Of a DNA stretch of 33,384 bases, positions 4,050-25,473 are shown in pieces. The DNA is from a virus: IMG/VR virus record IMGVR_UViG_3300005581_000070, positions 1-33,384 of that record; one strand, written 5' to 3'. The position numbers were made by a program, and so were the translations under genes. The notes beneath the pieces are model-generated. The model did not search any database. It saw only the letters and a program-made list of their open reading frames with translations, and was not told the DNA's origin. The first letter of the stretch is position 1; every line of letters starts with the position of its first letter.

Positions 4050-6074
4050 ATGAGAAATCTTAACATCAAATATGCGTTTGCCAAGAACTTCCTCTGCTTT
4101 GGCCCAAGTGGCGTGGAGGTGAAATTTGCCGATTATGGCAATTTAGTTTTCCTCCGTGGCGAGAACAGGGATGTCAAAAGTGTCGATAGCCCTCTGCAAT
4201 CCGACGAAGTAAAGATAAGCTCCAATGGTTCTGGCAAAAGCAGCATCCAAGAAATAATTTGCTATGGTCTATTTGGCAAAACCATAAAAAAGCCATCGGC
4301 AATCACAAAGGATGGCGTAATAAACAACCTTGTTGGAAAAGATTGTCTTGTTGAAATTATATGGGATAAGTACAGAGTTGTACGAACAAGAAAAAAGAAT
4401 TCTTTAAAGCTTTGGGAGAGTGAGAGTAACGAATGGAATGAGAGTTCGGAATTGACCACTGGGAGTATGGATGAAACCCAAGCCATCTTAGAGGGAATCA
4501 TTGGTTTGACCTATGAGTCATTTGTAAGTATATGTGTTTTCACAGATGATCAATCCGCAAGCTTTTTAGAAGCTGGTGCTCCGTTGAAGCGTGAAATAGT
4601 CGAGAATCTATTATCGCTTTCTTCTTTTCGTGATAGACACGACAAGGCAAAAAAGCTTGTTTCTGAAACAACCGCAGGGATAAAGGTTCTAAGTCGTGAA
4701 TATGAAATCCTCAAGTCTAATGAGGATCAAGGCGAAAGGCGCCTCAAGCAAACTGAAATCAAACAGTCTGAATGGGTAAAAACAAAAGCTAAGGAACTTG
4801 AAAATTCAAAAACAATTTTAGATGCAAAAAAAGCAAAGCTTGGAAAATCATCTCATGGAACAGATATCCTTGCATATCAAGAAGCTCAGAAGGTAATACA
4901 AGATGGAACTACAAATATTGATGATTTGGACAAAGTTGTTGCCGATGAAAAATCTAAGCTTGATCTCGCTCAAGATAAAAATGAGAAACTAAAAGATGTC
5001 GCCCAATCCCTACGATCCAAAGCGGATCAAATTAAGTCTGATGTTTCTACCGAACAGCGCAATATTGATTTAAAAAATCAGCATATAAAGAAACTAGAGA
5101 ATCATGAACATGGATCTCTTTGTGACACATGCTTTGGTGTTATCGACGAATCAAACATTCAGAGGGTAATTGATGAGGACAAGCGTATAATCGCCACACA
5201 TCAAGACAAATTAAATGTACTGATGCAAGATGCAACAAAATTGTCTGATGAAATGAAGGATCTTTCTGAAAAACAAAAAAAAGTTAAAGATTTTATATCC
5301 ATCAAAGAACTGGCGATATCAAAAGCCAATGCCGAAATAAGGGAATGGCGAATCAAAATATCTGAGGCAATCAAGGTCAAGGAGCCAAAAGTTGATAGCA
5401 CAGAACTTTTGCTTCAACAAGAGATAGAGATGTTAGAAGAGCAAATACGCACAAAGCATTCGGAGCTTGCTGGCAAGACTCCATTTGATGACATCATCGA
5501 ATCAGAGCGTGAAGAACTGGATCTCAGCAAAGACATCTGCATAAAAAAGTCTGATTCCATTAAGGAACACGAAGATAATCTTAAGCATTATCAATTTTGG
5601 CAAGCTGGCTTTGGTGATAAGGGTATAAGGAAAATTGTTGTCGATGGAATAATACCACAGCTGAACAATCGTATAGCTTATTGGCTGCAATTTCTCATCG
5701 ACAATAAGATCGCACTCCGGTTTGATAGCGAATTTAACGAAACTATAGAGAGAAATCCAGCTGATGGCGATCCGTATATTTACCATGCTATGTCGGCAGG
5801 CCAAAGACGAAGGCTAAATCTTGCCGTTTCACAAGCTTTTGCTGACATAATGATGTTGAGTTGCGGTACGGCTCCATCCCTTGTCTTTCTTGATGAGGTC
5901 ACCACAAACATAGATCCGATTGGTGTTCAAGGAATTTACAACATGATACAAGAACTGATGGAAGATAAACAAGTTTTCGTTACAACACACGATAAAGACT
6001 TGATAAAGATGCTTGAAACCGCAACCACCATGAACCTTGTGCATGAGGGTGGATTTACGATTCTTAAAAAATAG
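4050..6074 (+). CDS. 46: SbcC/Rad50-like ATPase, T4 gp46 homologue
   Basis: 674 residues, longer than T4 gp46 (560). The SMC-like order is clear: Walker A at 58-65 (SNGSGKSS, Lys63), long coiled coils from about 185 to 345 and 365 to 500, a zinc-hook CxxC (C358-D-T-C361) at the coiled-coil apex, the ABC signature SAGQRRR near 582, and Walker B VFLDE with D615/E616 followed by a D-loop-like TTNIDP. In the T4 family it pairs with gp47 to form the ATP-driven end-processing nuclease that loads recombination proteins. The ATG lies 14 bases after the preceding stop with only a weak ribosome site. The extra length is in the coiled coil. Confidence 0.94.
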   Translation: MRNLNIKYAFAKNFLCFGPSGVEVKFADYGNLVFLRGENRDVKSVDSPLQSDEVKISSNGSGKSSIQEIICYGLFGKTIKKPSAITKDGVINNLVGKDCLVEIIWDKYRVVRTRKKNSLKLWESESNEWNESSELTTGSMDETQAILEGIIGLTYESFVSICVFTDDQSASFLEAGAPLKREIVENLLSLSSFRDRHDKAKKLVSETTAGIKVLSREYEILKSNEDQGERRLKQTEIKQSEWVKTKAKELENSKTILDAKKAKLGKSSHGTDILAYQEAQKVIQDGTTNIDDLDKVVADEKSKLDLAQDKNEKLKDVAQSLRSKADQIKSDVSTEQRNIDLKNQHIKKLENHEHGSLCDTCFGVIDESNIQRVIDEDKRIIATHQDKLNVLMQDATKLSDEMKDLSEKQKKVKDFISIKELAISKANAEIREWRIKISEAIKVKEPKVDSTELLLQQEIEMLEEQIRTKHSELAGKTPFDDIIESEREELDLSKDICIKKSDSIKEHEDNLKHYQFWQAGFGDKGIRKIVVDGIIPQLNNRIAYWLQFLIDNKIALRFDSEFNETIERNPADGDPYIYHAMSAGQRRRLNLAVSQAFADIMMLSCGTAPSLVFLDEVTTNIDPIGVQGIYNMIQELMEDKQVFVTTHDKDLIKMLETATTMNLVHEGGFTILKK

Positions 6075-8456: not shown

Positions 8457-10097
8457 ATGGCTAAATACATTTTTGTTGTTGGTGGTGTTATTTCTGGTAC
8501 TGGCAAAGGTGTCTCTGCTGCAAGCATAGGCCTCTTACTTAAGCTTAGGGGTCACAATGTTACGCTTGTTAAGTTTGACCCATACTACAATGTCAATGCT
8601 GGTATTCTTGGGCCTGGAGAGCATGGCGAGTGCTTTCTTTGTGATGATGGCACTGAGACCGATCTCGATTTGGGACACTATGAAAGAATAGCTGGCATAA
8701 CTGTAAGCAAGTCCAACATATGCACTCATGGTATCTTGCAGAAAGAACTCATTGAGGAGCAAGAGCAAGGCAAATATCTTGGCGAGACAATACAAGTCAA
8801 TCCACACTTGACAGACAAGATTGAAAAACGATTGGTTGATCTTGGAAAAACACATGACATTGTGATAGCCGAAGTCGGTGGCACAGTTGGGGACTCGGAA
8901 AGCTTTGCATTTTTTGAATCAATCAGGCTTTTCAAGCAAAAACAACGATCAAATGTGGTTATGGTTTTAGTTGCTCCTATCCTTTGGGTCAAAACCATCA
9001 AGGAATTTAAAACAAAACCATTGCAAAATGCTGTCAAAGAACTTCAGAGACATGGTTTGCAACCTGATGTTATTTTGTGCAGAACCGAAAACCCAATACC
9101 TGACAAGATACTTCAAAAAGTCTCACAACTTTCCAATGTTGATCGTGAGGCTGTTTTTGACGCACCCGATCTTGATTCCATTTATCAAGTTCCATTGGCG
9201 TTTTATGATCGGCACATAGACGATCTTTTTGTCGATCTTTTACATCTCAACAGAAGTGCTTGCAGAATACACAAGTACCGTGAAGTTGTGGACAAATATA
9301 CCAACAACCAATTTCAACCTATTACAATTGGAATTTTTGGAAAATACGACAATTGCGATGAAGCATACATTTCTTTAAAAGAAGCATTGTTGCACGCCGG
9401 AATAGCAAACGATGCCAAGGTTATTGTTAAGTGGCATAAGTCAGAAGAATTGGAAAAATACAAGGATGCTAGAGGTTATCATAAATTTTTTGATGATCTT
9501 GATGGTATTGTCATACCTGGCGGTTTTGACAATCGTGGCATTGAAGGTAAAATTAAAGCAATTCAGTATGTCCGTGAGAAGAAAATACCATTTCTTGGCA
9601 TATGCCTCGGGTTGCAGTGTGCAGTTATTGAATTTGCTAGAAATGTTTGTGGTCATGAAGATGCCAATAGTATGGAGTTTCAGAAAGATTGTGCGCATGC
9701 TGTTGTGAAATATGTTCAAGGGCAAGATAATATTGCTAAAAAATCAGGAAGTATGCGTTTGGGAACATATGACTGCGACCTCAAGAAAGACTCTTTGGCG
9801 TACCAGTTCTATGGACAGAAATTGATCAAAGAGAGGCATAGGCACAGACTTGAAGTCAACGATGTGTATGTTCAAGAGTTTGAGTCTAATGGATTCATTG
9901 TGAGTGGCAGAAACCCACAGACAAATCTTGTTGAAATCATGGAGTTAGGTAGCGATATACACCCATACTTTGTTGGCACACAAGCACACCCAGAGTTTAA
10001 GAGTAGGCTCACTATGGCATCGCCGTTGTTTGTAGGGCTAATTTCGGCTGCACTTAAAAATAAAAAACCTAGCCTTGAAACCATAAATAAATCATGA
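8457..10097 (+). CDS. pyrG: CTP synthase (glutamine-hydrolysing)
   Basis: 546 residues, full length for PyrG (about 545). It makes CTP from UTP, ATP and glutamine. The N-terminal synthase domain has the P-loop-like SGTGKG (Lys17), FDPYYNVNAG, HGE and TDLDLGHYER. The C-terminal class I amidotransferase domain has the nucleophile Cys383 in GICLGLQ and the His511/Glu513 pair in AHPEF, plus GSMRLG. Some usually invariant stretches differ: SSLGKG is SGTGKG, the MSPYQHGEVF block is LGPGEHGECF, and the segment after GHYER is changed (ICTHGILQ), so the enzyme is divergent but all catalytic residues remain. A GAGG ribosome site precedes the ATG. The TGA overlaps the ATG of the next gene (ATGA), so the two are coupled. 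Confidence 0.95.
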   Translation: MAKYIFVVGGVISGTGKGVSAASIGLLLKLRGHNVTLVKFDPYYNVNAGILGPGEHGECFLCDDGTETDLDLGHYERIAGITVSKSNICTHGILQKELIEEQEQGKYLGETIQVNPHLTDKIEKRLVDLGKTHDIVIAEVGGTVGDSESFAFFESIRLFKQKQRSNVVMVLVAPILWVKTIKEFKTKPLQNAVKELQRHGLQPDVILCRTENPIPDKILQKVSQLSNVDREAVFDAPDLDSIYQVPLAFYDRHIDDLFVDLLHLNRSACRIHKYREVVDKYTNNQFQPITIGIFGKYDNCDEAYISLKEALLHAGIANDAKVIVKWHKSEELEKYKDARGYHKFFDDLDGIVIPGGFDNRGIEGKIKAIQYVREKKIPFLGICLGLQCAVIEFARNVCGHEDANSMEFQKDCAHAVVKYVQGQDNIAKKSGSMRLGTYDCDLKKDSLAYQFYGQKLIKERHRHRLEVNDVYVQEFESNGFIVSGRNPQTNLVEIMELGSDIHPYFVGTQAHPEFKSRLTMASPLFVGLISAALKNKKPSLETINKS

Positions 10098-15674: not shown

Positions 15675-15725
15675 CTCGACCTCCAGGCCAAGATAATATC
15701 ATAAATGCTTATTATTTAAAAGAAA

Positions 15726-16469
15726 TCATTCGAAAATTTGAATTTGGTTTTTTTCACTGACAAAAGTGTTTTCTGCATAATCTAATTCAAACCAAACATT
15801 GTAAATTCCCGCATCATAATCATTGGTATCAATGAAGTAATACGCATACATCTTTTCTCTATAATCCACGAGCTGCCGATCAACAACCAATCGTAAATCT
15901 TTTTCCTGAGGGACACAATCCCCGCAGGCCTTTTCGATCGATATACGCAAATCTGAGACTATGGCGAGATTTTCGTAGTACGGCTGAAGATCGGCACCTC
16001 GAGGCACATTAGGCGTTATCTGTACGATAAGATAACGCTTTGTTCCCTTTACGATGCGATTTGGTCTGAAGCCAAATGAGAAGTCGTAAACTGGTGGTAT
16101 TGGAGAAGTGAACCATAATTCTGGATAGAGTCTGAAAGTATTACTGATATCTGCTTGTTCGCATCCGGTGCTTTTAAAGGTTACCTTCCAGACATCAAGA
16201 TAATCTCCGATAGTGTAGAGTGGGCTCGATGCACTAACATCAAGATAGTAGGCTCCTGTACCTTCGGATACAATACTGGGGCTTTCAAATGTCTCTACAA
16301 GACGGCGACCATCGGGGTTGATCGAAGTTACTTCGTTTGGATCGAGCGTATAGATATCTACTCGATCAACCGACTGAAGGTCTGCTCTATTGTTGCTATT
16401 ATAAGAGAAAAGTCTCAACCTAATGGTGTCATTGCAGGTTGGATTCTGCATTCTTTCTTTGGTTGGCAT
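15726..16469 (-). CDS. Beta-rich hypothetical structural protein, tail/baseplate region
   Basis: 247 residues with no certain family. The sequence is beta-rich with many Tyr, Asp and Pro and contains two clusters with paired cysteines (N-PTC and CGDC). Segments such as DVWKVTFKSTG and AGIYNVWFELDY look like Ig- or jelly-roll-type strands, as in adaptor or sleeve proteins of virions. It begins 3 bases after the stop of the frameshift extension of the gp26-like gene, so it lies in the same operon. Virion location is inferred from neighbours. Confidence 0.7.
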   Translation of the reverse strand: MPTKERMQNPTCNDTIRLRLFSYNSNNRADLQSVDRVDIYTLDPNEVTSINPDGRRLVETFESPSIVSEGTGAYYLDVSASSPLYTIGDYLDVWKVTFKSTGCEQADISNTFRLYPELWFTSPIPPVYDFSFGFRPNRIVKGTKRYLIVQITPNVPRGADLQPYYENLAIVSDLRISIEKACGDCVPQEKDLRLVVDRQLVDYREKMYAYYFIDTNDYDAGIYNVWFELDYAENTFVSEKNQIQIFE

Positions 16470-16472
16470 TTT

Positions 16473-16709
16473 TTATCTTCTCTTGTTGCCTGATTTGCGT
16501 CGCTCGGCCTCGATGGCCTCATTTTCTTTTTCTTTTTGCTCAATGAACCTTTGTATCATCCACTGTCTGATGTTTACGGGCATGATTAGTGTTTTACCCA
16601 TATCTTGTTGCAGATGATACATGAAGAAAAATATTTCTTCGAGGAGGTTTTTTCCTAGGGCTAAGCTTGGGTGTTCTTTTCCCTCCTCCGACGGGGGAAG
16701 AAAAAATTT
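16473..16709 (-). CDS. -1 frame extension of the gp26-like gene (frameshift product; gp51-position reading frame)
   Basis: This frame begins after a stop at the slippery run and stays open to a TAA at 16473. Its translation (FLPPSEEGKEHPSLALGKN, then a helical LLEEIFFFMYHLQ, then MPVNIRQWMIQRFIEQ and a charged tail) is protein-like for its whole length, including the part overlapping the upstream gene. There is an internal ATG at 16622 (49 codons), without a Shine-Dalgarno motif, so separate initiation is also possible. In T4, gene 51 lies directly after gene 26. I interpret it as the C-terminal extension made by -1 frameshifting, as in tail-assembly chaperones of other tailed phages. Confidence 0.6.
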   Translation of the reverse strand, partial: KFFLPPSEEGKEHPSLALGKNLLEEIFFFMYHLQQDMGKTLIMPVNIRQWMIQRFIEQKEKENEAIEAERRKSGNKRR

Positions 16710-17701
16710 GCTTCAAGCGGCAGTTCGATTGAAAATTCAGCTTGGCAGCTTGGGCAATTTATTTCAACATTTGTATCAACGCCAAATGGAGGATCGTTGA
16801 TGATACTTCGTATATATGACACATCATTGATAGGCAGACTCTTGAGAAGAATCTGCAGTTCCATCTTATCTGTGATTCCATCAATATTTTCAATTAACTG
16901 TGCCGTTCTGTAGGTCAATGTGTCATCGGTTGCTGTGTCGCCAAACATTTTGAGTCGTCTTTCACGGTACTCATTGATTTCTTGCTCATCTCTACCTGTG
17001 GACAATTTATACCCGAACTTCAATTTGGAGTTTGGAAGCGTGTCTTCAAGGACTGGGCCATAATCAACTGGACACTGGTTGACATAGAGGCTGCTGAGGT
17101 CAACATTAGTACTGAACTTTGTGGAGCATTCAGTACATTTAACTTCAACATCATAACTGTGAGAATAAGATATGGTTCTCAAGTACAGCAAGAGATAAGT
17201 TCGATCAGTAGTCAGCATGTTTTCAACTTTGAAATTTTCCTTAATGCACTTTTGGAAAATCATGTTGATTGCTTGACCTTTACGAACGAATCTTGGAGTT
17301 GCCAAGATTTGCTCTTCTTCACCGGTCATTGGGCGGATGTGGACAATTCCATCAGATGGACCATTTGTCCCATCGTAAAATCTTCCTTTAGATGGCAATT
17401 GAACTTCTTCATATTGAGAAAGGTTGCCTCTAAGGGATTCAAGCAGTTCCTTTAACCTACCACTTTGATTACTTTGTGGGAAGCTAGATGTAGCCGGAGC
17501 TTTGGAAATGCTTGGGGTATTGTTTTGGTTCTTGTCACGCAAAGAACCAAAGGCTTGGTTTGGCTTTTGTAACTGTGACGAAGGAACTTCATCTTGTTGA
17601 TTGTTATTTTTCTGTTGAAGGACATCGAGAAATTCTTGCGGCACATTGCCCTTGATGTTCATGCCGGCTTCATTCTTATTGAGGTTCAAATCATCTGTCA
17701 T
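16661..17701 (-). CDS. 26: Baseplate hub/tail assembly protein, T4 gp26 family
   Basis: 346 residues, longer than T4 gp26 (208). The first 90 are Gln/Asn/Pro/Ser-rich and probably disordered. From about 95 the family signature is visible: VQLPSKGRFYDG, IHIRPMTGEEEQILATPRF, a hydrophobic LLLYLRTISYSHSY block, then a zinc ribbon from two CxxC pairs (CTEC and CPSC). GGAG ribosome site before the ATG. The protein ends FFFPRRRREKNTQA; at its 3' end there is a slippery site leading to a -1 extension. It acts in the cytoplasm during assembly of the baseplate hub and tail in T4; here this is inferred from homology and neighbourhood. Confidence 0.8.
   Translation of the reverse strand: MTDDLNLNKNEAGMNIKGNVPQEFLDVLQQKNNNQQDEVPSSQLQKPNQAFGSLRDKNQNNTPSISKAPATSSFPQSNQSGRLKELLESLRGNLSQYEEVQLPSKGRFYDGTNGPSDGIVHIRPMTGEEEQILATPRFVRKGQAINMIFQKCIKENFKVENMLTTDRTYLLLYLRTISYSHSYDVEVKCTECSTKFSTNVDLSSLYVNQCPVDYGPVLEDTLPNSKLKFGYKLSTGRDEQEINEYRERRLKMFGDTATDDTLTYRTAQLIENIDGITDKMELQILLKSLPINDVSYIRSIINDPPFGVDTNVEINCPSCQAEFSIELPLEANFFFPRRRREKNTQA
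16700..16709 (-). promoter_or_regulatory. Slippery sequence for -1 ribosomal frameshift
   Basis: Read on the minus strand in the zero frame the run is A AAT TTT TTC, which contains two overlapping X-XXY-YYZ heptamers (A-AAT-TTT and T-TTT-TTC). The zero-frame stop lies about 37 bases downstream, and the -1 frame is open and protein-like beyond it. No strong downstream stem is claimed. Confidence 0.5.
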
Positions 17702-17752
17702 AGTATTACTCCTGATATTGCATTAATGTGCCTTTGGCTTTAAAATAGTGAC

Positions 17753-21656: not shown

Positions 21657-21914
21657 ATGAGCAACCTTATAGAACAACTAGAAAAACAAGAACTAATTCA
21701 AAAACTTATAGATAAAGGCTATGCACCTCTTATAGATGCACTCCTTGACAATGAGAGGGATGTATACACAAAGAAGGGCAGACTCAATAAAAGCGGAGCT
21801 TGCCGTGTTCTTGGTTGGAAGCCAAAAGAATTAGAGCAAGCCTTAGAGGAATGTCGTGATATTTTGAAAAACGATTTGTTCTTCAATGATAAAGAAGAAG
21901 AAGAAGATATCTAA
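21657..21914 (+). CDS. Small helical protein, candidate gp33-like late co-activator
   Basis: 85 residues from ATG 21657, preferred over ATG 21627 because AAGGAA lies 4 bases upstream. It has an N-terminal helix (IEQLEKQELIQKLIDKGY), a KKGRLNKSGACRVLGWKP segment resembling a helix-turn-helix, and a C-terminus ILKNDLFFND followed by an acidic tail. NDLFF resembles sliding-clamp-binding tails. In T4, gp33 and gp55 act together and both bind the clamp. The placement directly after gp55 favours a gp33 role, but sequence similarity to gp33 is not established. It converges with the tail-tube-like gene, 4-base overlap. Confidence 0.6.
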   Translation: MSNLIEQLEKQELIQKLIDKGYAPLIDALLDNERDVYTKKGRLNKSGACRVLGWKPKELEQALEECRDILKNDLFFNDKEEEEDI

Positions 21915-22423
21915 ATCTGCTCCCAATATGCCCTATCGTACCTAATAGTTAGATCAACATAAACAACGCTTGAATCGCTGTGGTCGAGCTCGCCAAAATC
22001 AGCATTCTCTATATACATGTTCTCAAATATCCAGCGTTCAATAATTTCTCCACAACCATCGTATAGTTCAAGTTTGCCTTCTTTTTTAAAGCCATCAGTA
22101 GCATACTTGAACTTTACAGAACTTTGGTCAACTTCGTACATCAACTTAATCCACTCCATGACCGGATGCTTGTTTTTCTTGATATCGAATAGCGTCAAGG
22201 TAACAGGCTTCCAGTCCGGCTTTCCGGGGAAAAAGATAGTCTCATGAAGGTGCTGAGCTTCCATGCTTTTAAAAGCTAAGCTTGGTCTCGCTGATTTGTT
22301 TGGTGGTAGAGCTCCGATAGGCTCATCTGAAACACCTGGAATTTTCATGAGCCATCTATACTTGCGTTTAAAGCAAGCAGTTGTTTTTTCCAATCCATAA
22401 TCAAAACTCATTCTTTGTGCCAT
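21911..22423 (-). CDS. Tail-tube-family protein (gp19 fold), second paralogue
   Basis: 170 residues. Shares with the 22512 gene the blocks FKRKYRW, PGKPDWKPVTLT, YDGCGE and ADFGELDHSDS, the gp19-type tail-tube pattern. It is shorter and separated from the other by a terminator. In T4, gp48 and gp54 are tube-like initiators that cap the baseplate, so this may be such an initiator or a second tube protein. Good ribosome site AAGAGG before the ATG. Confidence 0.78.
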   Translation of the reverse strand: MAQRMSFDYGLEKTTACFKRKYRWLMKIPGVSDEPIGALPPNKSARPSLAFKSMEAQHLHETIFFPGKPDWKPVTLTLFDIKKNKHPVMEWIKLMYEVDQSSVKFKYATDGFKKEGKLELYDGCGEIIERWIFENMYIENADFGELDHSDSSVVYVDLTIRYDRAYWEQI

Positions 22424-22511: not shown

Positions 22512-23090
22512 TTAGCAACCAATACACTGTGGCGCAGGTCTATTACCGCACTTGTTTTCGTATATTGCTTGGTAATATCTAAGGGTCAATTCGACTGTTA
22601 CTTCTTCGGATGAACTATAGTCAAGGTCGCCGAAGTTTACAGCCGATGGCCATACACCTCTAAGTTGCCATTGTTCAAGTTCTATTCCGCAACCATCGTA
22701 CATTTGCAAAAGACCTTGACCAGCCCAACCACCATTGTTTCCATCCCCTTGGATGGTGGTCTGTTGCATCATCTTTGAGCCTGTATCTTGGAAGTTATAG
22801 ATCGAAGCCAACCAGCTGTAAAGCCCAGTGATACCATTGTTTTGTGCTCTGGAAACATCATAGTAGGTCACGGTGATGGTTTCCCAGCTTGCTTTTCCTG
22901 GAATCCACATCTTTCCATGAAGGTAGTTGATTTCAGTTTCTTCAATAGTCAAATTTGGTCGACTTGCCAACTTTACGAAATTTTTGCCGATCTTTTGACC
23001 ATTCCATGTAACTTCGAATGTCCATCTGTATTTTCTTTTGAATATCAAGTTGGTGTTTGTAGCCAACTCATTTAAGTGCATTAATGCCAT
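22512..23090 (-). CDS. 19: Tail-tube protein, T4 gp19-like
   Basis: 192 residues (T4 gp19 is 163). Conserved blocks: FKRKYRWTFEV, KLASRPNLTIEETEINYLHGK, PGKASWETITVTYYD, a Gly/Asn-rich loop, MYDGCGIELEQWQLRG and VNFGDLDYSSSEEV. These are the strands of the tube-forming beta-barrel that stacks into the inner tail tube. It lies 22 bases after the sheath gene, the T4 order 18-19. AAAGGGG ribosome site. Ends with a Cys-rich tail (CGNRPAPQCIGC) not typical of gp19. Confidence 0.86.
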   Translation of the reverse strand: MALMHLNELATNTNLIFKRKYRWTFEVTWNGQKIGKNFVKLASRPNLTIEETEINYLHGKMWIPGKASWETITVTYYDVSRAQNNGITGLYSWLASIYNFQDTGSKMMQQTTIQGDGNNGGWAGQGLLQMYDGCGIELEQWQLRGVWPSAVNFGDLDYSSSEEVTVELTLRYYQAIYENKCGNRPAPQCIGC

Positions 23091-23112: not shown

Positions 23113-25473
23113 TTAGAATGCATCTGTGCTTTCGGTAAAGTCACTTCCGGTTCGATGAATACTGAATTCAAGGAACATAAATTCAACTGCTCTAGTTGGT
23201 TGTACACCAATTCTTGCTCTAAACTCATTCCTATCGATCACATCGGAAGTGTTGAGTTCGGCATCGGCCTTAATTTTAAAATCTGTAATACCTCGGTCAG
23301 TCTGAACTTCTTGAAGAATTACAGTTGCAAGTCTTACGAATTCTGCTCTAAATTCTTCATCATGAGGTTCAAATAGTAAGGATCGGGACTTTACCTTGAT
23401 CTGCTTTTCAATGTAAAACATTAAGCGTCTTACATTTACACGATCCAAGGCTGTAGGCCTTCTCTGCAAGGTTTTTTGGCCCCATACACAGAAACCTTCG
23501 GCATCTGCGAATTGAATGATCGGATTGATGCAGTTTCGGTAACCATACATCAAGTCTCTTTCTTCTTGGGTTGGTCTTGCATAAACATCGTTGATTCCAG
23601 GAACAAGACCACGGGTTAAGCCAGCTGGCGCAAACCATGGACGAGCAAGGCGGTCGCTTTGTGCATACACAGCCATTACAGATCCACTTGGTGGTGCCCA
23701 GATATCAACTCTGTTATAATTGTCACGGATGCGAACCCAAGGCCAGTAAAGCGCACCAAAGTCACTATCGAATCGAGTGGAGTTCAACGGATGAGTTCCA
23801 TTTTGCCATGCAATGATTTCATTTACAGTCAAGCCGAATGGAGCATCGATGATTGCCATGCAATCCATACGGAAATTTTGACACATGTAAAGCAACTCGG
23901 TTACAACAGTTGTGCTGCTATGGCCAGGAACTGCAACAAGGTCAATGTCAAACGATTCAGATTCGCTGACTGCATACAAGCCGCTATAGGCAACAGAGTT
24001 ACCAATCAACAGTGCGTCTTGCTTGTCTGGATCGGATGGTATACCATCGGAGCCACCAGAAAGATTGTAAGTTCCATCAGCTGGGCCTGCAAGGATGTCA
24101 GTATTGTCAATCACACGGATGTAGTCAGAAACTAGTGATAGATAGCTGCCAACATAGAATGTGCTAACGGGATCCTTGGTAAGCTGTCCCCAAGATTCAA
24201 CTTGACTACCATTGTTGTAAATTTCAAATACCCAGTTTCTGTCACGGGTATTGTTCTTTACTACAACTTGCGTGAAGTTACCTTCGATACCATTGGTGTC
24301 AGCGGTAACCATAAAAGCGATATCATTGTTGTTATTTGAGTCGCCATTGATTCTTCCATAGGTTTCATCCGCAGCATCACCAGTTACGCCCGTTGGGCTT
24401 ACGCCAATCTTAGTTGTGGTTGAAAGACCAAAGATTTGTTCTGCGGTGCTAGTTGGTTTGATACGCAGGCGTGCGTCACGACCATGATGCAGTGTATAGA
24501 AGGATAGTGATGTGCCACCCTCAACAGCTGCAATCCAACCGCCAGGAAGGGCTCCGCCATTGGATACTTTCTGGTTGTTGAACTCTTCAGCGACTTCATT
24601 TGCAGTCCAGCTGCTTCCTTCAAGATCGGCAAGGCTAATGGTTTGAACAATGTTGTCAATCAACACATTGTCAGTTCCATCAACAACGATTTCAAGTGTA
24701 AGGCCGGTGTAGCCATTGAGATCGTATACGCCTGGGGTTTGGTAGCCAACATTAGGAAACATTGACATGGATCCAATAACTGATGCGGTTAACATCCCAG
24801 TTCCAAGACCAGTAGGATTTCCTTCGGATACGAGTCCACCATAAATGGCATTCTGCACGGATACAAATTCAAGTTCTGCACTTGGTCCATATGCCCATTT
24901 GCTGCGTACACTAATAGTTGCACTATCGCTTTCGTAAAACTCAATTCCATCATTCTGAATGTCAATTTGGTCATTTAAGGTATTGACGAGTTCAGTAACG
25001 GTATAAGTATCCTCAAGAACAACAAGTGTTCTCTCGCTGAGAGTTCCATTAAGTCTCCATCTAAAGAAGGAGTCTTGGTCAAATGTGTATGGTCCAGCGG
25101 TCGCAGATTCAACTTCAATGATTGTTCCAGCTGCTGGAACATTAATTTCTGCAACCGTTGCAGATTCGTCGCTTACTGGATCGGTATCAGCCACACGAAC
25201 CACATAAAGTTCGTTAGCAACCAAGAGGTATGCTTCCGCTGCGTAGATCAAGTATGGATCGCCAGTTTCTGGATGGGGATTTCCAAAAGTCCTTCTCAGC
25301 TGTCTCTGAGAAGCAATTACAGTAGGAAGATTAATTGGGCCTTTGCTGGCAAATCCAATTAAAGCAGCCCTGTGTAGTGTCTGTTCTGGCAGAACAAAGC
25401 TAAGGTCTTTTTCTGCAATTCTAACACTAGGACTAATTGTGTTCGATGGTGGAAACCCTTTTAAAATCGCCAT
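23113..25473 (-). CDS. 18: Tail sheath protein, T4 gp18-like
   Basis: 786 residues (T4 gp18 is 659). It starts MAILKGFPPSNTISPSVRIAE, a typical sheath N-terminus, then has LIGFASKGP and TVIASQRQLRRTFGNP (early conserved domain). A central Gly/Thr/Asn-rich insert follows, and the conserved C-terminal sheath domain lies in about the last 270 residues: DCMAIIDAPFG, YWPWVRIRD, a PWFAPAGLTRG block, NPIIQF, VRRLMFYIEKQIK and the C-terminal EFMFLEFSIHRTGSDF arm. The protein polymerises around the tube and contracts on infection. GGGAGAA ribosome site. Followed at once by the tail-tube gene. Confidence 0.95.
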   Translation of the reverse strand: MAILKGFPPSNTISPSVRIAEKDLSFVLPEQTLHRAALIGFASKGPINLPTVIASQRQLRRTFGNPHPETGDPYLIYAAEAYLLVANELYVVRVADTDPVSDESATVAEINVPAAGTIIEVESATAGPYTFDQDSFFRWRLNGTLSERTLVVLEDTYTVTELVNTLNDQIDIQNDGIEFYESDSATISVRSKWAYGPSAELEFVSVQNAIYGGLVSEGNPTGLGTGMLTASVIGSMSMFPNVGYQTPGVYDLNGYTGLTLEIVVDGTDNVLIDNIVQTISLADLEGSSWTANEVAEEFNNQKVSNGGALPGGWIAAVEGGTSLSFYTLHHGRDARLRIKPTSTAEQIFGLSTTTKIGVSPTGVTGDAADETYGRINGDSNNNNDIAFMVTADTNGIEGNFTQVVVKNNTRDRNWVFEIYNNGSQVESWGQLTKDPVSTFYVGSYLSLVSDYIRVIDNTDILAGPADGTYNLSGGSDGIPSDPDKQDALLIGNSVAYSGLYAVSESESFDIDLVAVPGHSSTTVVTELLYMCQNFRMDCMAIIDAPFGLTVNEIIAWQNGTHPLNSTRFDSDFGALYWPWVRIRDNYNRVDIWAPPSGSVMAVYAQSDRLARPWFAPAGLTRGLVPGINDVYARPTQEERDLMYGYRNCINPIIQFADAEGFCVWGQKTLQRRPTALDRVNVRRLMFYIEKQIKVKSRSLLFEPHDEEFRAEFVRLATVILQEVQTDRGITDFKIKADAELNTSDVIDRNEFRARIGVQPTRAVEFMFLEFSIHRTGSDFTESTDAF

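Follow-up and report, generated by a model that had tools for sequence, protein, structure and literature searches.

The gp26-like gene analysed here lies near the middle of a virus record of 33,384 bases (the window, that is, the whole stretch of DNA that was analysed) on the minus strand, and beyond its slippery T run an open reading frame continues in the -1 frame. The question is whether this gene makes one protein only or, as the original prediction had proposed, also a longer one by programmed -1 frameshifting. As described below, comparative evidence supported the frameshift. The features of the locus and of the tail genes around it are collected in Table 1.

Table 1. Positions of the gp26-like gene, its slip site, the -1 frame extension and neighbouring tail genes in the window
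Feature	Positions	Strand	Remarks
Tail sheath protein	23113-25473	minus	
Tail tube protein	22512-23090	minus	phrog_4542
Second tail-tube paralogue	21911-22423	minus	phrog_4542
Zero-frame gene, gp26-like short tail-assembly chaperone (TAC-N), 346 aa	17701-16661	minus	PF12322 / phrog_150
Conserved slippery heptamer T TTT TTC (mRNA U UUU UUC)	16706-16700	minus	identical in 28/28 distinct clade sequences
Zero-frame slip codons	TTT 16705-16703, TTC 16702-16700	minus	
Predicted hairpin starting inside the slippery run	16666-16706	minus	from RNA folding
-1 frame extension (TAC-C), 75 codons LPPSEEGK...NKRR and TAA stop	16700-16473	minus	predicted fusion product 409 aa
Zero-frame TAG stop	16661-16663	minus	42 nt past the first base of slip codon TTT
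In-frame ATG within core motif FFFMYH	16620-16622	minus	Ser, Gln or Leu in many relatives; no obvious ribosome site

The identity of the zero-frame protein was examined by profile and structure comparisons. The protein matched PF12322 'T4_baseplate' (E 2.1e-20, 73.8 bits against a curated cutoff of 24.5) and phrog_150 'baseplate hub' (E 3e-25), and it contains two CxxC zinc-ribbon-like motifs. HHalign scored the window gene at 100% against marine gp26-like genes and at 95% against the T4 gp26 set. The structural model of the zero-frame protein resembled other baseplate hub or hub assembly chaperone proteins, the best match being that of SP-15 (E 1e-19). Sequence searches for relatives of solved structure gave nothing credible for the gene or for its extension, the matches being marginal or low-complexity helical repeats, and fold comparison against the PDB likewise returned no credible match.

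The 3' end of the zero frame reads GAA GCA AAT TTT TTC TTC CCC CGT CGG AGG AGG GAA AAG AAC ACC CAA GCT TAG, and the protein accordingly closes with ...LPLEANFFFPRRRREKNTQA. The -1 frame reads FFLPPSEEGKEHPSLALGKNLLEEIFFFMYHLQQDMGKTLIMPVNIRQWMIQRFIEQKEKENEAIEAERRKSGNKRR down to position 16473, which makes 77 codons if the two re-read Phe codons are counted, and it opens 7 nt 5' of the TTT TTC pair, as it does, likewise just 7 nt ahead, in most of the clade sequences. The original prediction had placed a coherent -1 frame of about 77 codons at 16473-16709, and it was right about both the positions and the length. The predicted junction peptide across the slip site is ...EANFFLPPSEEGK....

Relatives were collected from IMG/VR, where both the gene and the -1 ORF served as queries and a profile search followed, and duplicates were removed; 28 distinct clade sequences were counted, with the window and the 595-kb phage LR756511 included. 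The relatives are about 41-89% identical to the window, and all 28 sequences carry TTTTTTC followed by a -1 ORF in one common register. In each of them an X XXY YYZ heptamer thus stands in the zero frame, 5' of the zero-frame stop, as in -1 frameshifts of the G/GT type. Asn, Gly or Ser is encoded just ahead of TTT, yet the third base of that codon is T in all clade sequences. Since TTT makes up only 54% of Phe codons and AAT only 61% of Asn codons in the clade genes, codon usage alone is insufficient to account for the constant T. The slippery run had been given as A AAT TTT TTC, of which the T TTT TTC part proved invariant. A AAT TTT was also considered as the slip heptamer and was rejected, for its first A varies (C AAT, A GGT and A AGT are found in relatives); with the base ahead of the AAT-position codon variable, it is T TTT TTC that the clade conserves, a site lying one codon further on than A AAT TTT would imply.

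The strength of purifying selection in the -1 frame was estimated from ten sequences sharing identical geometry. From the zero-frame stop up to the core motif, pN/pS was 0.22 in the -1 frame, close to the 0.18 of the upstream gene, and 1.70 in the zero frame and 3.75 in the +1 frame of the same stretch. In the overlap, the synonymous difference fell to 0.21 for the -1 frame and 0.30 for the zero frame, compared with 0.77 upstream, as expected of dual coding, in which both frames are constrained. The window and at least ten relatives have no ATG, GTG or TTG in the -1 frame between its opening and the core, and the selection (pN/pS 0.22) acts 5' of every possible start, as in genes of the G/GT type. 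The original prediction had named two observations that would speak against it, a slippery run missing from homologues and a -1 ORF always beginning at its ATG with no conservation upstream; what was found instead is a run in every clade relative, an ATG that varies and a conserved stretch ahead of it.

The extension itself was modelled by AlphaFold2 as three helices with a mean pLDDT of 88.7. Compared with viral structures, this model gave weak matches, among them gp51 of Prochlorococcus phage P-HM1 and proteins annotated as tail assembly chaperones. A PHROG search with the extension alone gave no match at E 0.001, and a Pfam match of the -1 ORF to Tma16 (E 2e-4, below cutoff) was taken as a charged-helix artefact. 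In one relative (L044), a second, stand-alone extension domain with its own ATG (MPITIEEIFFFLYHMELEPEKVYKLPINLRKYLIEKFIEQKENKIN, positions 4251-4391) directly follows the -1 ORF, an arrangement that looks like a duplication of the C-terminal domain.

These results argue for a programmed -1 frameshift that would yield a short (346 aa) and a long (409 aa) tail-assembly chaperone, a reading to which we assign a probability of roughly 0.9. We infer slippage, its efficiency and the roles of the chaperones as follows. One start would give two proteins, with most ribosomes ending at the TAG at 16663-16661 and releasing the 346-aa TAC-N. A smaller share of ribosomes, holding Phe-tRNAs on UUU and UUC, would slip one base back at U UUU UUC, the two tRNAs re-pairing from UUU UUC to UUU UUU, and reading would go on in the -1 frame. 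The slipped product would be a 409-aa TAC-NC carrying a helical C-terminal domain (TAC-C). On the model of lambda gpG/gpGT, the short form may serve to coat the tape-measure protein, with few copies of the long form to recruit tail-tube subunits.

Three other explanations were weighed against this one. Translation might begin internally, at a ribosome site belonging to the extension or by re-initiation coupled to termination, and so make the extension a separate protein; the in-frame ATG at 16622 of the window, the ATGs near the zero-frame stop in several relatives (overlapping it in L001, L045 and L047) and the annotation of cyanophage gp51 as an ORF of its own are all consistent with that. 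However, the ATG at 16622, tried as an internal start, was rejected because its position is not conserved among relatives, and it sits inside the core motif; the -1 frame 5' of it is under the purifying selection described above, and many relatives have no start codon of any kind from the -1 opening to the core. With no start before the core and a conserved part upstream of it, a separate gene cannot explain that conserved part, and it also leaves the invariant T TTT TTC unexplained. We therefore regard a separate protein as very improbable, while coupled re-initiation might take place in addition to slippage in L001, L045 and L047.

The same fusion could also arise by transcriptional slippage, if RNA polymerase added one U on the six-U run in some of the mRNAs. 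The conserved element is indeed a homopolymer run, and slippage of this sort would encode an identical junction peptide. But U UUU UUC fits the X XXY YYZ pattern of ribosomal slip sites, with a codon register fixed in all relatives, and efficient polymerase slippage usually needs longer runs, of about 8-10, so that this route appears slightly less probable still than an internal start. As for an error of sequencing or assembly, or one gene recently split by a frameshift mutation, homopolymer runs are error-prone; yet one register is kept across dozens of independently assembled contigs and LR756511, and divergent relatives agree with it, isolates like RaK2, 121Q and Rhizobium phage IC12 among them, which makes the chance of either negligible.

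RNA structure around the slip site was examined as well. The hairpin predicted to start inside the slippery run showed zero covarying pairs and ordinary folding z-scores (0.1 to -1.8), and its role as a stimulator of frameshifting is not supported. No Rfam family was matched in 15700-17750. A stimulatory RNA structure is a feature of many, but not all, -1 frameshifts of the G/GT type.

The relationship between the extension and gp51 was determined with HHalign. When the window-clade extension was aligned directly with cyanophage gp51 or with the C-terminus of T4 gp51, neither comparison was significant. The results showed stepwise links through the marine clade, from the window extension to the marine one (99%), from the marine one to cyanophage gp51 (93%), and from cyanophage gp51 to the T4 gp51 C-terminus (94%), so that the window extension would, by transitive argument, be the gp51 C-terminal domain. 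In T4 itself, gp26 and gp51 are homologous (HHalign 96%). Residues 1-201 of T4 gp51 fall in PF12322 (E 3.9e-52) and about 48 C-terminal residues are left over, and T4 gp51 (L055:8480-9229) is thus a gp26 paralogue with the extension fused in frame. The 3' end of T4 gp26 has no T run. T4 genes 26 and 51 had been described as adjacent; they are indeed neighbours, with gene 25 following 26, but they lie on opposite strands and are divergently transcribed, and T4 itself does not have the arrangement of the window. From their sequences, T4 26 and 51 look like a duplicated short and long pair standing in for the frameshift.

A wider survey of the gp26 family was carried out. Among cyanophage-type loci, 79/80 have T TTT TTC just 5' of the gp26 stop and then a -1 ORF, which in Synechococcus phage Sf-FS3 is annotated as gp51, 'baseplate hub assembly catalyst'. 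T TTT TTC followed by a -1 ORF was likewise found in RaK2, 121Q, Atu_ph07 and Rhizobium phage IC12, and T TTT TTT followed by a -1 ORF in XacN1 and RAS14. Another 80 loci, mostly marine (L065-L135 and L137-L145, e.g. L111 near 2290-2320), were examined, and in 73 of them the extension lies in the +1 frame. The sites there are TTT TTT TGG (CCT) at 69/80 loci and TTT CTT TGG at 4/80. The +1 site of RF2 is CUU UGA C, and the likeness of marine CTT TGG C to it favours, by analogy, a +1 rather than a -2 shift. SP-15, LIS04 and GXN1 have the extension in the +1 frame without either of these motifs. One marine relative (L076, around 3485) has a -1 frame extension at TTC TTC TGG with no T run and fits neither slip motif.

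The frame label requires two changes when traced over a tree of 101 sequences, a count that is approximate because the bootstrap is unsettled and some rows are long. One of the changes is forced by well-supported branches, and the shift direction has therefore switched at least once. We lean towards a single gp26-type family that shifts by -1 at U UUU UUC in the window clade, the cyanophages and the RaK2-type phages and by +1 at [UUU/CUU] UGG C in the large marine clade, the direction having switched with the fused product kept; in T4, gene duplication would then have taken the place of the shift. The survey suggests that frameshifting is the usual state of the gp26 family and that the separate genes 26 and 51 of T4 are the derived exception.

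According to a 2016 review, conservation of G-T frameshifting is wide among long-tailed phages 'except T4'; in lambda, a single gene gives gpG and gpGT as short and long chaperones, through -1 frameshifting at a low level close to its 3' end (PMC5009743). The original prediction had held that frameshifting is, to its knowledge, not standardly described for T4-type gp26. This did not stand, as it is already reported for gp26-type genes of some T4-like phages (Vladimirov et al. 2022). Of two papers that cite this work, the PRFect paper refers to it for T4-like phages with a short gene and a long fusion gene instead of frameshifting (PMC10885494), and the phage Adele paper for poly-T -1 signals in T4-like TAC-N genes (PMC12846349). 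The frameshifted gp26-type chaperone is an already described kind, and the window gene is a further example of it. Vladimirov, Gautam and Davidson (Virology 2022, 566:9-15, 10.1016/j.virol.2021.11.003) are said to have recognised the T4-like chaperone genes 26 and 51 as the short and long forms, and reportedly found frameshifting conserved in several T4-like groups.

Compared with these systems, T4 gp26 (TAC-N) and gp51 (TAC-NC) share with the window the PF12322 N-terminal domain and two forms that differ by the C-terminal domain, whereas T4 makes its forms from two divergently transcribed genes and the window has one gene with a -1 slip site. Cyanophage gp26-gp51, as in Sf-FS3, has the same T TTT TTC just 5' of the gp26 stop and the same -1 ORF; it differs in an overlap of about 3 codons, in an ATG soon after the stop and in the annotation of the ORF as a separate gp51, and the cyanophage gp26 sequences are about 21% identical to the window protein. 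Lambda gpG/gpGT are likewise two chaperone forms from one gene by -1 frameshift, but the window phage is contractile-tailed and the lambda slip site is a heptamer different from T TTT TTC. P2 gpE and gpE+E' come from a contractile-tail phage with a T-run -1 slip site, as in the window, yet by the searches made they are unrelated to the window proteins. The present case thus extends the T4-type frameshifted chaperone to a divergent huge-phage lineage, with a strong comparative case for its slip site. Annotations miss the -1 ORF or call it a hypothetical gene or gp51, and many such genes could be re-annotated as joined features.

The genomic neighbourhood was examined in the window and in other phages. 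The tube and sheath genes lie upstream of the gp26-like gene on the same strand, and a sheath stabiliser gene is on that strand as well. The two tail-tube paralogues stand side by side. The sheath protein is unusually long (786 aa), with the conserved sheath domains confined to its C-terminal part. No tape-measure gene was recognised within the window. LIS04 and Flavobacterium immuto have the order tube, gp26-like gene, tape measure, and SP-15 has a putative tail protein in the place of the last. Elsewhere in the window, at 8457-10097, the phage encodes a CTP synthase that combines the synthase and the glutamine amidotransferase domains.
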